Source of the DNA: an uncultured Craurococcus sp.
Lineage (GTDB): Bacteria > Pseudomonadota > Alphaproteobacteria > Acetobacterales > Acetobacteraceae
Length of the DNA stretch: 62,583 nt
NCBI GenBank assembly: GCA_902805545.1
Contig: CADCTD010000078.1
Coordinates: 1 to 62,583 of the forward strand
Direction of reading: 5' to 3'
A program made the position numbers and the translations under genes. A model generated the notes under the pieces. It had not been told where the DNA came from and made no database searches. It saw nothing but the letters and a program-made list of their open reading frames with translations. Shown in pieces: positions 1-4,130 of the stretch; position 1 is the stretch's first letter, and the number at the start of each line of letters is the position of its first letter.

Positions 1-1036
1 GCGGGGCCGCGACCATCACCCGCGGCACGATCCGCCCCGGCCCCGGCCAGGCCGGCGCCTCGCCGGGCGCATCGAGCAGGGCGAGCCGCGCGTCATCCAG
101 CCTCAGCAGGGAGAGCGAGCAGCCAGGCATCTCGAGTGCGGTGAGGAAATTACCGGCCCAGGCCCGCTGCACCACCAGCCCGCGCTCGCGCAGCAGGGCG
201 ATGGCGCGGCGGGCGACGATCGAGAGCTCCATCGGCGGCGTGCCGCCCAGCCCGTTGACCAGCAGCGCCACCCGCGCCCCGGCGCCGAGGTCCCGGTCCT
301 CCAGGATCGTCCCCAGCATCCGCTCGACCAGCGCATCCGCCGGCGCCAGCGCACCGCGCTCCACGCCCTGCTCGCCATGGATGCCGAGGCCGAGCTCGAT
401 CTCGGCCTCGCCGAGGGCAAAGCCCGGCTTCCCCGCCGCCGGCACGGTGCAGGCGCCGAGCGCTACGCCCATGCTGCCGAGCTCGGCAGCCGCCGCGCGG
501 GCGATGGCGGCAACCTCCGCCACCCCCTGCCCCTGCGCCGCCGCGGCCCCGGCCAGCTTGTGGACCAGCACCGTCCCGGCGATGCCCCGCCGCCGCTCCG
601 GCGCCACCGTGTCGCGCAGCGCCACGTCATCGGCGACGACGGCCACCTCGCAGGGGATCCCCTCCGCCCGCGCCAGCTCGGCGGCCAGGCCGAAATTCAG
701 CCGGTCGCCGGTGTAGTTCTTGACGACGAGCACCGCGCCGGCGGGGCCGGCCGCGGCGCGGATGCCCGCCAGCACCGCATCGACGCTCGGCGAGGTGAAG
801 ACATCGCCCGCGATCGCGCCCGCCAGCAGCCCCGGCCCGACATAGCCGGCATGGGCCGGCTCGTGCCCCGCCCCGCCGCCCGACAGCACCGCGACCGGCC
901 GGGCCTCGGGAGGCGGCAAGCCGGCGCGCACCACCACCTCCTCGCTCTCCAGCAGGGCGAGGCCGGGATGCAGGTCGCAGAGGCCCTCGAGCATCTCCCG
1001 CACCACCCGGCGCGGGTCGTTGACCAGCTTCTTCAT
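1..1036 (-). CDS. dhaK: Dihydroxyacetone kinase, DhaK domain (3' end outside window)
   Basis: Phosphorylates dihydroxyacetone to DHAP in the cytosol. The visible 345 residues form a DhaK domain. SGGGAGHEP (residues 52-60) holds one conserved substrate-contacting His (H58). GIHGE holds H220, the residue that binds dihydroxyacetone covalently as a hemiaminal (H218 in E. coli). The reading frame runs off the left edge, so it is not visible whether a DhaL (ATP-binding) domain is fused behind it, as in ATP-dependent kinases, or encoded separately. It starts 14 bp after the pyruvate kinase stop on the same strand, so it is very probably cotranscribed with pyruvate kinase and glycerate kinase. The start MKKLVN follows a GGGAGGGGGAGGGG purine-rich ribosome binding site. 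Confidence 0.93.
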   Translation of the reverse strand, partial: MKKLVNDPRRVVREMLEGLCDLHPGLALLESEEVVVRAGLPPPEARPVAVLSGGGAGHEPAHAGYVGPGLLAGAIAGDVFTSPSVDAVLAGIRAAAGPAGAVLVVKNYTGDRLNFGLAAELARAEGIPCEVAVVADDVALRDTVAPERRRGIAGTVLVHKLAGAAAAQGQGVAEVAAIARAAAAELGSMGVALGACTVPAAGKPGFALGEAEIELGLGIHGEQGVERGALAPADALVERMLGTILEDRDLGAGARVALLVNGLGGTPPMELSIVARRAIALLRERGLVVQRAWAGNFLTALEMPGCSLSLLRLDDARLALLDAPGEAPAWPGPGRIVPRVMVAAP

Positions 1037-1050
1037 CCCCTCCCCCTCCC

Positions 1051-2694
1051 TTACTTCACGGACGCCACCCGCAACGCATTCGTCGTGCCGGGCGTGCCGA
1101 AGGGGACGCCGGCGGTGACCACCACCTCCTGCCCGGGCGTGGCGAAGCCCTCTGCCTGGGCCGAGCGCAGCGCCTTCGCCACCATGTCGCCCATGGAGTT
1201 CGGCTCCTGCGAGACCAGCGGATGCACGCCCCAGACGACGGCCAGCCGCCGCGCGCTCTCGATACTGGCGGTGAGGCCGAGGATCGGGCAATCCGGCCGC
1301 TCGCGCGCCACGCGCAGCGTCGTCGACCCGGTGGAAGTGAAGGTCGCGATCACCTGCGCCTTGATCGTATGCGCCACCTGGCGGGCCGCGGCGGCGATGG
1401 CGCCGGCGCTGTTCGGCTCCGGCTCGGGGCGGGAATTGTCGGTGAGCGAGCGCCAGCCCGGGTCCTGCTCCACCCGCGCCACGATGCGGTCCATCATGTT
1501 CACCGCCTCGAAGGGATACTGCCCCGCCGCCGTCTCGGCGGAGAGCATCACCGCATCCGCCCCGTCGAACACGGCCGTCGCCACGTCGGAGGCCTCGGCC
1601 CGGGTCGGCGCCGGGGCGGAGATCATGCTCTCCAGCATCTGCGTGGCGACCACCACCGGCCGCCCCAGCGCCCGTGCCGCGCGGACGATGCGCTTCTGCA
1701 CCAGCGGCACCTCCTCCGGCGGCAGCTCGACGCCGAGGTCGCCGCGCGCCACCATCACGCAATCGGCCAGCGCGATGATCGCATCGAGGTTCTCGACCGC
1801 CTGCGGCTTCTCCATCTTCACCATCACCAAGGCGCGGCCGGCGCAGATCGCCTTGGTCTCGGCCACATCCTCCGGCCGCTGGACGAAGCTGAGGCCGATA
1901 TACTCGACCCCCCGCTCGAGCACGAAGGCGAGGTCCTCCCGGTCCTTCTCGGTCAGCGCCGGGATCGGCAGCGCCACGTCGGGCACGTTGACGCCCTTCC
2001 GGTCGGAGAGCGGGCCGCCGACAACTATCTCAGTCTCCAGATGGTCCTCCCTCACCCGCGTGACGCGGAGCCGCAGCTTGCCGTCGTCGAGCAGCAGGCT
2101 GGTGCCGATCTGCGCGGCCATGATGATCTCGGGGTGGGGCAGCTGCACCCGCCGCACATCGCCCGGATTGGGGCTGAGGTCGAGGCGGAAGGGCTGGCCC
2201 GTCTGCAGCTGCACCCGCCCGCCCTGGAAGCGCCCGACCCGCAGCTTCGGCCCCTGCACATCGGCGAGGATGCCGATCGGCCGCCCCACCTTCCGCTCCA
2301 GCGCGCGGATGACAGTGATGCGCTCGGCATGGTCGGCGTGGGAGCCGTGGGAGAAGTTCAGCCGGAACACATCCGCCCCCGCCCGGTAGAGCCGCTCGAT
2401 CACCTCGGGCGTGGAGCTGGCCGGGCCGAGGGTCGCCACGATCTTGGTGCGGCGGCGGCGGCGCAGCGGGATGCGTGTGGCCATGCGGGGCGTATTCCCT
2501 TCGAGCGGGGTTCTGTGGAGGTCCGGCCGCAGCCGATAGGGAGGCAGGTCGAGCAGGCGGGACAGCTCCGCAACCCGGTCCGCGGGCACGCGCTGCCATT
2601 GCGAGACGGCGGCGGGGGAGATGCCGAGGGCCGAGGCGATGCGGGTGACGGCGCCGCGCCGGGCCAGGATGTCTTCCAGTTCTGGGTCACGCAT
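1051..2694 (-). CDS. pyk: Pyruvate kinase with N-terminal YdaS/Cro-like helix-turn-helix domain
   Basis: The C-terminal 477 residues (from M71) are a complete pyruvate kinase converting PEP and ADP to pyruvate and ATP. Visible motifs are KIVATLGPAS (73-83), VKMEKPQA with catalytic K292 and metal ligand E294, ARGDLGVE with D318, ATQMLESM (349-356) and SAETAAG (384-390). Residues 1-70 are an extra domain, a complete YdaS-type HTH: IASALGISPAAVSQW (19-33) is the HTH core and LRPDL (55-59) is the typical YdaS end. There is no stop between the two parts. An internal ATG at 2484 (M71), with GAAGGGA about 11 nt upstream, would give a normal-length kinase, so two products are possible. Gene order is glycerate kinase, pyruvate kinase, DHA kinase. 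The family assignment is certain; whether the fusion protein is made is not. Confidence 0.93.
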   Translation of the reverse strand: MRDPELEDILARRGAVTRIASALGISPAAVSQWQRVPADRVAELSRLLDLPPYRLRPDLHRTPLEGNTPRMATRIPLRRRRRTKIVATLGPASSTPEVIERLYRAGADVFRLNFSHGSHADHAERITVIRALERKVGRPIGILADVQGPKLRVGRFQGGRVQLQTGQPFRLDLSPNPGDVRRVQLPHPEIIMAAQIGTSLLLDDGKLRLRVTRVREDHLETEIVVGGPLSDRKGVNVPDVALPIPALTEKDREDLAFVLERGVEYIGLSFVQRPEDVAETKAICAGRALVMVKMEKPQAVENLDAIIALADCVMVARGDLGVELPPEEVPLVQKRIVRAARALGRPVVVATQMLESMISAPAPTRAEASDVATAVFDGADAVMLSAETAAGQYPFEAVNMMDRIVARVEQDPGWRSLTDNSRPEPEPNSAGAIAAAARQVAHTIKAQVIATFTSTGSTTLRVARERPDCPILGLTASIESARRLAVVWGVHPLVSQEPNSMGDMVAKALRSAQAEGFATPGQEVVVTAGVPFGTPGTTNALRVASVK

Positions 2695-2702
2695 GGCGCC
2701 AA

Positions 2703-2771
2703 CTTAGGAAATGTAAGCTGGCCCGCCTAGCACCCGGTGCGACTTAAATTTGAAGCGCCGGTTAAGTTACC
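2703..2771. promoter_or_regulatory. AT-rich spacer with four short dyads upstream of the HTH-pyruvate kinase gene
   Basis: This spacer between glycerate kinase and the HTH-pyruvate kinase is unusually AT-rich for the window. It contains CTTA-N7-TAAG (2703-2717), GCACC-C-GGTGC (2730-2740), CTTAAATTTGAAG (2743-2755, one mismatch pair) and GGTTAAGTTACC (2760-2771, imperfect, running into the glycerate kinase stop). Such short symmetrical elements are plausible operators for a Cro/YdaS-type protein, including the HTH encoded immediately downstream. Function is inferred only from symmetry, composition and position. Confidence 0.35.
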
Positions 2772-4060
2772 AGCACGGCGCGGACGTCGTTTACATTGGT
2801 CAGCGTCGGCCCGGTGACGATCAGGTCGCCGAGCGTGGCGAAGACCCCGTAGCTGTCATGCGCGGCCAGCATCGCCCGCGGGTCGAGCCCCGCTGCCCGC
2901 GCCCGCGCCAGCGTATCCGGCGCGGCGATGGCGCCGGCGGCATCGGACCTGCCGTCGATGCCATCCGTGTCCGCCATCAGCGCCCAAATGCCGGGGTGCC
3001 CCTCCAGCGCCAGCGCCAGGCCGAGCAGCCCTTCCATGCTCCGCCCGCCCCGGCCGGCGGCGCCCGGCGGCAGGGTCACCGTCGTCTCCCCGCCCGACAG
3101 GATCAGCGCCGGCCGCCCGACCGGCAGCCCATGCGCCGCGCTGCCGCGGGCGATGCCGGCCAGGACCTTGCCGAGCACCGCCGCCTCCCCCTCCAGCGCA
3201 TCGCCGAGGATGAGCGGGGCGAGGCCCATCGCCTCGGCCTCCCGCGCCATGGCCCGGAGCGCCATCAGCGGCGTGGCGATCATCCGGAGCTCCGCCCCGG
3301 CGAGGCGCGGGTCGCCCGGCTTCGGGCTTTCCTCCTGCGCCGACTCGAGGTGCCGCGTCACGGCCGGCGGCAGCTGCATCCCGTAATGCGCGACCAGCGC
3401 CCGCGCCTCGGCGAAGGTGGTGGGGTCGGGCACGGTCGGGCCGGAGGCGATCACCGCCGGGTCGTCCCCCGGCACGTCGGAGATGGCGAGCGTCACGACC
3501 CGGGCCGGATGCGCCGCCGCCGCCACACGGCCGCCCGAGAAGGCCGAGAGGTGCTTGCGGATGCAATTCATCTCCTGAATCGGCGCCCCGGAGCGCAGCA
3601 GCTCGCGGTTCACCGCCATGAGGTCGTCGAGGGAGAGGCCCGGCGCCGGCAGGGTCGAGAGCGAGGAGCCGCCGCCCGAGACCAGGAAGAGCACGAGGTC
3701 ATCCGCCGAAAGCCCCCGCAGCAGGCCGAGCATCTCCGCCGCCGCCGCCGCCCCGGCCGCATCCGGCACGGGATGGCTGCCGAAGCGCACCGCGATCCGC
3801 CGCCCGGCCGGGGGCTCCGGCACGTCGGCGCCATGCGTCGTGATGACGAGGCCGGAGAGCGGCCGGTCCGCCCATGCCCGCTCGACCGCGAGGGCCATCT
3901 TCGCCGCCGCCTTGCCGACGCCGATGACGATGCAGCGGCCCCGCGGCGGCTCCGGCAGATGCGCCGGCAGCGCGGTCAGCGGGTCGGCCGCCGCCAGCGC
4001 CGCCTGGAAGGCCCGGTGCAAGGCCGCCCGCGCCCGCGCGTCGTCGAAGCCAGCCGCCAT
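2762..4060 (-). CDS. ttuD: Glycerate 2-kinase (GckA/TtuD, MOFRL family)
   Basis: A 432-residue enzyme of the GckA/TtuD family that phosphorylates D-glycerate to 2-phosphoglycerate; older annotations call the family hydroxypyruvate reductase. Motifs are VIGVGKAA (K50), VSGGGSSLS (127-135), a SDVPGDDPAVIASGPT stretch and LSGGETTV before the C-terminal MOFRL region ending in TNVNDVRAVL. I chose ATG 4060 because AGGGGAGGAGAGGG lies just upstream; an ATG at 4102 in the same frame lacks such a site and eats into the divergent promoter. It is first in the set with pyruvate kinase 67 bp downstream, the ttuD-ttuE-like arrangement known from tartrate and glycerate catabolism. The product would feed enolase and then pyruvate kinase. 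Divergent from the DUF1244 gene. Confidence 0.9.
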   Translation of the reverse strand: MAAGFDDARARAALHRAFQAALAAADPLTALPAHLPEPPRGRCIVIGVGKAAAKMALAVERAWADRPLSGLVITTHGADVPEPPAGRRIAVRFGSHPVPDAAGAAAAAEMLGLLRGLSADDLVLFLVSGGGSSLSTLPAPGLSLDDLMAVNRELLRSGAPIQEMNCIRKHLSAFSGGRVAAAAHPARVVTLAISDVPGDDPAVIASGPTVPDPTTFAEARALVAHYGMQLPPAVTRHLESAQEESPKPGDPRLAGAELRMIATPLMALRAMAREAEAMGLAPLILGDALEGEAAVLGKVLAGIARGSAAHGLPVGRPALILSGGETTVTLPPGAAGRGGRSMEGLLGLALALEGHPGIWALMADTDGIDGRSDAAGAIAAPDTLARARAAGLDPRAMLAAHDSYGVFATLGDLIVTGPTLTNVNDVRAVLVT

Positions 4061-4130
4061 GGACCCTCTCCTCCCCTTTGCTGCGGCGCCAGTATGGACC
4101 ATCTAGGCAGGGACGAAGAGGGAGAGCCCC

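Follow-up and report, generated by a model that had tools for sequence, protein, structure and literature searches.

Pyruvate kinase control is usually described as allosteric and as exerted by separate transcription factors; here a phage-like DNA-binding domain stands at the N terminus of such an enzyme. We met this arrangement in a 62,583-nucleotide stretch of DNA from an uncultured Craurococcus sp. (the window, by which we mean the whole stretch that was analysed), where a stop-free minus-strand reading frame of 547 amino acids, opening on ATG, joins a helix-turn-helix (HTH) domain to a complete pyruvate kinase (HTH-PK, Table 1). Given alone, the HTH matches Pfam P22_Cro (PF14549) over residues 7-46 (2e-9, 37.5 bits, gathering score 30.2) and YdaS_toxin (PF15943) over residues 12-61 (31.5 bits, cut-off 30); with the full protein, P22_Cro still exceeds its cut-off at 33.5 bits and YdaS_toxin gives 26.7 bits. 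The carph-isopro domain (NF046037) scores 22.4 bits against the HTH alone and 17.1 against the full protein, below its cut-off of 38. The kinase part is covered nearly end to end by NCBIfam PRK06247 (residues 78-546, 697.5 bits against a curated cut-off of 623) and also matches Pfam PK (367.1 bits, cut-off 30) and PK_C (119.6 bits, cut-off 28). The Cro/YdaS HTH-pyruvate kinase fusion is real. A preliminary description of this DNA had recognized an in-frame HTH followed by a complete kinase, which stands; the length of about 70 residues that it gave the HTH comes down to about 60 for the HTH proper, with residues 61-77 forming a linker.

Structure prediction agrees with this division. The HTH is modelled as five helices with a mean pLDDT of 83.7 when predicted alone and block means of 78-89 in the fusion model, residues 61-77 fall below 50, and confidence in the full-length model is moderate (mean pLDDT 72.3). 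Searched with Foldseek, the HTH-only model yielded no fold match at E 0.001 or better, and its matches to the YdaS structures 8co2 and 8c7k are weak (E 0.93-2.4, TM by query 0.63-0.69); the best fold matches of HTH-PK are the pyruvate kinases 7oo1 (Pseudomonas aeruginosa) and 7ueh (Zymomonas mobilis). HTH-PK is also the one pyruvate kinase match in its own genome. Its two neighbours lie on the same strand, the upstream one scoring 217.8 bits against NF041176 (cut-off 550) and the downstream one, which is cut by the window end, 460 bits against PRK14479 (cut-off 492).

Table 1. Features of the HTH-PK locus, in window coordinates
Feature	Position	Strand	Remarks
HTH-pyruvate kinase (HTH-PK) fusion gene	1051..2694	-	547 codons + stop
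Cro/YdaS-type helix-turn-helix domain, residues 1-60	2515..2694	-	P22_Cro match, five predicted helices, purifying selection
Linker, residues 61-77	2464..2514	-	low pLDDT; length and sequence vary among relatives
Complete pyruvate kinase (barrel and C-terminal domains), residues 78-547	1054..2463	-	PRK06247, PK, PK_C
Possible internal ribosome-binding site, GAAGGGA + ATG (Met71)	2482..2502	-	duplex energy -5.3
Putative -10 element TAAGTT	2701..2706	-	overlaps proximal operator candidate
Proximal operator candidate CTTACATTTCCTAAG (CTTA-N7-TAAG)	2703..2717	-	ends 8 nt before ATG
Putative -35 element CTAGGC	2725..2730	-	18 bp upstream of -10; weak CnTGG conservation
Degenerate distal operator candidate CTTCAAATTTAAG	2743..2755	-	same string in 5/8 genomes of the genus
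Upstream gene, glycerate 2-kinase like	2762..4102	-	NF041176 3e-64
Downstream gene, dihydroxyacetone kinase family, runs past window end	1..1036	-	PRK14479 9e-138

The preliminary description had left it to relatives to decide between a lasting fusion and a gene pair normally parted by a stop codon. An HTH search of 299 family genomes, followed by reading of the frames, found 44 in which the two parts are joined in frame, our own included and L015 truncated at the end of its contig. These 44 represent 13 of 102 genera, and the eight genomes sampled from the window's genus all carry the fusion. In a named collection consisting of the best 80 of 94 relatives, all 80 loci are fused in frame and free of a stop between the two parts, so that conservation is what was found. 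These loci belong to Belnapia, which holds the closest relatives among those 80, and to Paeniroseomonas, Siccirubricoccus, Roseicella, Humitalea, Paracraurococcus, Dankookia, Falsiroseomonas, Neoroseomonas, Plastoroseomonas, Pararoseomonas, Roseococcus, Roseomonas and metagenome-assembled genomes (MAGs); since they overlap with the 299-genome set, the counts are not additive. In a sample of the order, with frame length as the only criterion, 32 of 200 genomes have the HTH in a long frame, which spans 545-594 codons in 31 and 456 in the other. Samples of the class (385 genomes, nine with an HTH match) and of the phylum (398 genomes, 18 with an HTH match), searched at E 1e-6 with at most 16 candidates scored per genome, held no pyruvate-kinase-length HTH frame besides our own, so the fusion looks restricted to this family; an HTH frame of 574-588 codons, the sole one in the class sample, proved to be Nnr and not pyruvate kinase.

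The HTH is under purifying selection. Across six groups of relatives, pN/pS is 0.11-0.29 for HTH codons and 0.02-0.20 for kinase codons, the HTH value being the higher in four of the six. Selection on the HTH rules out a chance open frame, and the occurrence of the fusion in isolates and MAGs from many projects rules out a sequencing or assembly artefact. In 41 of the 44 fused family genomes, with at most five candidates scored per genome, one kinase match only was found.

Upstream of the fused genes lies a candidate operator that the preliminary description did not mention, the 15-bp palindrome CTTA-N7-TAAG. Among 81 fused genes, namely the 80 named loci and our own, 75 carry it in perfect form and 79 with no more than one mismatch. 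Six genes have no perfect copy, namely L146, L147, L148, L150, L157 and L160, and each of them is from Roseicella or Paracraurococcus. The 108 perfect copies occur in two places only, a proximal one (67 genes) whose end is 8 or 9 nt from the start codon and a distal one (41 genes) whose end is 45-50 nt from it, with 33 genes having both and eight of the 41 distal sites standing without a perfect proximal partner. Where both sites match at 7 of 8 positions or better (n=54), their spacing is 41 bp in 28 genes and 37-47 bp in the rest; of the 33 genes with two perfect sites, 26 have the 41-bp spacing, a distance of about four helical turns. Another 16 fused genes have CTTA-N12-TAAG at the distal place and 24, Belnapia included, have neither the N7 nor the N12 form there; the distal candidate, which is degenerate in the window's genus, sits in the window at about the place where 41 of the 81 fused genes have their second perfect copy. 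Shuffling the last 80 bp gave a mean of 0.09 sites and a maximum of 2 in 500 shuffles, against the 108 observed, and among spacers from 2 to 15 the next best after 7 was 12, with 34 sites.

The same palindrome distinguishes fused from non-fused genes within the family. It is perfect in 37 of the 44 fused family genomes and present with at most one mismatch in 42, whereas none of 28 non-fused pyruvate kinase genes of the family has a perfect copy within 400 bp and two of the 28 have a 7-of-8 match. In the fused L040, whose start codon is placed more upstream, the region ahead of it was trimmed manually. This presence at fused-gene promoters and absence from the non-fused relatives examined supports self-regulation, and with it the earlier suggestion that the enzyme regulates its own operon (perfect in 75 of 81 fused and in none of 28 non-fused genes). 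Our own genome (4.53 Mb, 97% complete) contains one perfect palindrome, at 2703-2717, with four for a reversed-pattern control. Thirty-eight further fused genomes, scanned apart from our own and with G238, G112, G024, G271 and G209 left out, have 0-6 perfect copies each and at least one in 36 of the 38, every genome falling below its reversed-pattern control; four of the five left out are without a perfect palindrome at the pyruvate kinase gene (pyk). In some fused genomes, further perfect copies lie away from pyk among the matches listed, so that a single target is evident for our own genome only. A one-mismatch scan for a wider regulon returned 34 places in our own genome (reversed-pattern control, 284), too many to be used.

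In one genus (Roseicella/Paracraurococcus), one half of the palindrome, TAAG or CTTA, is replaced by TAGG, TAGA or ATTA at five loci (L018-L020, L022 and L025), and their HTHs share GTGAK for GAVTR and, in most of them, GIT for GIS. It is possible that protein and operator candidate changed together here.

We then considered where the palindrome lies relative to a promoter. In an alignment anchored on the proximal site, TAAGnT stands out, 80% of weighted sequences having T as the last base of the hexamer, and CnTGG is weakly conserved 18 bp further up; we take the former to resemble a -10 box and the latter a weak -35, and the assignment of both elements in the window is accordingly putative. 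The proximal palindrome would thus cover the -10, a position suited to a repressor. The start codon of the HTH lacks a Shine-Dalgarno (SD) sequence (mean duplex energy -1.93), which makes a leaderless transcript likely, and HTH-PK is perhaps translated from one.

A different start signal lies inside the gene. The preliminary description had offered, as an alternative to a regulatory enzyme, that an HTH gene had lost its stop and that an internal ATG at 2484 makes the free kinase. This ATG (Met71) is indeed preceded by an SD-like GAAGGGA, and in 59 of 81 fused genes an ATG stands exactly at the first kinase residue. Duplex energies at these 59 junctions (mean -5.70, median -5.60) lie below those at 1620 random in-frame positions (mean -2.95, s.d. 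2.66), but the 22 junctions without ATG at that codon are similar (mean -5.27, median -5.70), so that the SD-like sequence alone is no proof of use; it may in part be an inheritance or a consequence of coding for Glu-Gly. The start codon of non-fused relatives lies at this same position, with energies no higher than -5.4 in 23 of 28, and it is likely that the fusion took in the ribosome-binding site that had served the kinase and that most species can still use it. An ATG, GTG or TTG lies within three codons of the junction in 64 of 81 genes, so free kinase is probably made too.

It would not be the only product. Seventeen of the 81 genes have no start at the junction, which rules this out, and seven of the 17 have no ATG, GTG or TTG anywhere between codon 59 and kinase codon 8. 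Others among the 17 have a possible start further upstream, at 14 codons in L185 (ATG with a strong SD, -9.5) and L167 (GTG, -4.4) and at seven codons in L141, L143, L144 and L145 (GTG or ATG with a weaker SD, -3.2). Among fused family genomes without a junction start, 13 of 14 have a single kinase match, which suggests that the fused form is probably the working kinase there. The lost-stop reading thus keeps its internal ATG, its SD-like sequence and a start retained in most genes, and loses ground on the 17 genes that lack that start and on the 13 genomes with one kinase match.

To place the fusion in time, we built a tree from 44 fused and 28 non-fused kinases; the non-fused L111, L221, L230 and L231 are outside both the tree and the 28, and L111 has no palindrome. 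The tree needs at least seven state changes, three of them forced by well-supported branches, and is compatible with one early gain followed by several losses, though several gains are conceivable. Independent contrasts between fusion and palindrome number seven on the whole tree and three on well-supported branches; in most pairings all three go the same way and none the opposite, three being too few for significance in a sign test. Stand-alone open frames for this HTH, of 72-115 codons, occur in the same family, and one of them, L065, has two overlapping CTTA-N7-TAAG sites directly before it, which suggests a small phage-like repressor as the source of the domain. Living species show what look like stages of the process, with the internal start kept, with the internal start lost, and with neither HTH nor palindrome.

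The same HTH type is found on other proteins. It is fused to CysD, the sulfate adenylyltransferase subunit, at nine loci (L057, L058, L062 and L232-L237, the last six being the same as L264-L269), eight of which have the 15-bp palindrome TTTAG-N5-CTAAA; in six of the nine it ends 8-10 nt before the script-chosen start, as in HTH-PK. The CysD and PK palindromes share a TTA/TAA core in the same orientation, a likeness that raises the probability of the palindrome being recognized by the HTH itself. The nine were kept from 12 candidates chosen by frame length; the other three, L238-L240 (= L270-L272), were rejected because the script gave no HTH hit and the refetched sequence no CysD. These loci have HTH-like matches in frames of 376-387 codons, with a partner other than CysD.

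Fusions to TorD-like chaperones (nitrate reductase delta family) were found at 21 loci, some of them outside the family (L053-L056, L063, L064, L212-L215, L218, L219 and L273-L281). All 21 match a TorD-like partner, and ATAAG-N5-CTTAT lies upstream in five only, in one case 125 nt upstream. In another family of the class, L217:1-1722 (-) joins the HTH to Nnr (YjeF, a bifunctional NAD(P)H-hydrate epimerase/dehydratase). At L060:1938-3338 (+), CarA, the carbamoyl-phosphate synthase small chain, carries an HTH-like domain of more remote kinship, which matches carph-isopro NF046037 with 66.4 bits (cut-off 38). Cro-like HTHs are also joined to the C terminus of the CcdA antitoxin, at L048:1817-3055 (-) by Pfam and at L049 by eye. 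That CysD, TorD-like chaperones and Nnr all carry this HTH type suggests that enzymes can become self-regulating by a modular route.

From these observations we infer that HTH-PK probably regulates its own gene, and the explanation that we favor, and consider likely as a whole, is that of a self-repressing pyruvate kinase with a phage-Cro-like N-terminal domain. HTH domains of the presumably tetrameric enzyme would pair up and bind the 15-bp CTTA-N7-TAAG, occupying a palindrome that overlaps the putative -10 of the enzyme's own promoter and, in many species, a second one some 41 bp upstream; binding would block transcription, and the enzyme would in this way limit its own synthesis. Binding of HTH-PK to the palindrome at its own promoter is very likely, given the company that palindrome and fusion keep, and that binding represses is a good expectation from the position of the proximal site. 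One tetramer could bridge the two operator candidates where both exist, a step about which we are tentative and lean slightly to the negative, and a response of binding to a metabolite, as the preliminary description had pictured it, is somewhat more doubtful. The retained internal start would supply HTH-free kinase, which could form mixed tetramers with HTH-PK.

These parts can be assembled into a fuller scheme that joins a metabolite-gated switch, transcript-dependent forms of the enzyme and a general habit of domestication, and that we judge unlikely when all of it is required at once. A tetramer with two HTH pairs would bridge operators separated by four helical turns, and PEP and sugar phosphates would open or close the bridge by driving pyruvate kinase through its T/R rotation; leaderless transcripts from the gene's own promoter would give HTH-PK, and read-through from the upstream gene would give HTH-free kinase; and phage Cro-like domains would have been domesticated as self-regulators on PK, CysD, CarA, Nnr and TorD-like proteins. 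A simpler account lets the HTH bind and repress with the kinase as a passive passenger, so that feedback would act on enzyme amount with no metabolite sensing and the fusion would merely tie the amount of repressor to that of enzyme. The flexible and variable interdomain linker, the one perfect palindrome in our own genome, and the junction start kept in 64 of 81 genes, by which the kinase need not always carry an HTH, all speak for a passenger, but PutA, a repressor without its substrate, is a precedent for switching (PMC8249747). We regard this account as a serious contender that falls just short of probable.

The remaining alternatives dispute the action or the actor. HTH-PK might activate its own promoter, or act on the upstream glycerate kinase operon instead of on itself, and it would then matter that the distal site is placed as activator sites are, on the upstream side of the putative -35, that the end of a glycerate-kinase-like gene is recognizable within 160 bp upstream in 40 of 81 cases, and that 8 of the 41 perfect distal sites have no perfect proximal counterpart. 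The best-kept site is nevertheless the proximal one (67 of 81), over the putative -10 and 8-9 nt before the start, and activation or action on the neighboring operon is very improbable in our estimation. That the palindrome serves another trans-acting regulator, with the HTH of the fusion binding elsewhere or nowhere, would accommodate the 0-6 perfect copies per genome in the 38 fused genomes, some of them away from pyk among the matches listed; it is very improbable, however, because the palindrome tracks the fusion (75 of 81 against 0 of 28), is unique in our own genome, and has HTH-CysD counterparts of equal length, mostly at the same place and with the shared TTA/TAA core. We give least credence of all to the HTH as a relic, in which an upstream HTH gene lost its stop, free kinase from Met71 is the real product and the fusion a by-product. 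A start codon and SD-like sequence kept at the junction in most species would be expected from a relic, as would the identical starting place of non-fused relatives (23 of 28 with a duplex energy of -5.4 or lower), yet the HTH is under purifying selection, the palindrome is conserved, 17 of 81 genes lack the junction start, seven of them with none from codon 59 to kinase codon 8, and in 41 of 44 fused family genomes the kinase match is a single one (with at most five candidates scored in each).

On its kinase side, HTH-PK has the same fold as 7oo1 and 7ueh, to which it is 52-56% identical over 465-473 matched columns, and the chains of these structures (464-477 residues) have the size of its kinase part alone. 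On its HTH side, the likeness is to phage Cro and YdaS (PF14549, PF15943), since the window's HTH given alone matches both models. These are small stand-alone prophage proteins, and Cro-like proteins recognize short palindromes in the region of their own promoter; in HTH-PK, by contrast, the domain sits on a core metabolic enzyme, and if the proposal is right a phage repressor domain has been domesticated there. The carph-isopro domain (NF046037) is similar in that an HTH-like domain is N-terminal on an enzyme, with the window's HTH below its cut-off. A literature search, covering titles and abstracts with most subscription journals outside its scope, found no paper with the name carph-isopro and no description of an HTH-pyruvate kinase fusion.

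Enzymes with an acquired DNA-binding domain are called trigger enzymes, among them PutA, BirA and NadR of E. coli, and HTH-PK likewise joins a complete enzyme to a DNA-binding domain within a single chain. PutA has the putA-putP spacer as its sole binding site and acts as repressor there when proline is absent (PMC8249747), and HTH-PK is like it in being an enzyme that carries its own DNA-binding domain, with self-repression predicted. Five E. coli trigger enzymes are named in that source, and pyruvate kinase is not one of them. HTH-PK differs from trigger enzymes in being a core glycolytic kinase and in its retained internal start; with one perfect site in the window's genome, it looks like an enzyme that serves as its own transcription factor, and flux state and gene expression could be tied within one molecule. 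The DNA-binding domain of PutA is a ribbon-helix-helix and that of BirA a winged helix, whereas HTH-PK has a Cro/YdaS HTH instead. Trigger enzymes as such are already known, and what would be new in HTH-PK, as read from these genomes, is the enzyme, the type of its DNA-binding domain and the internal start that it has retained.
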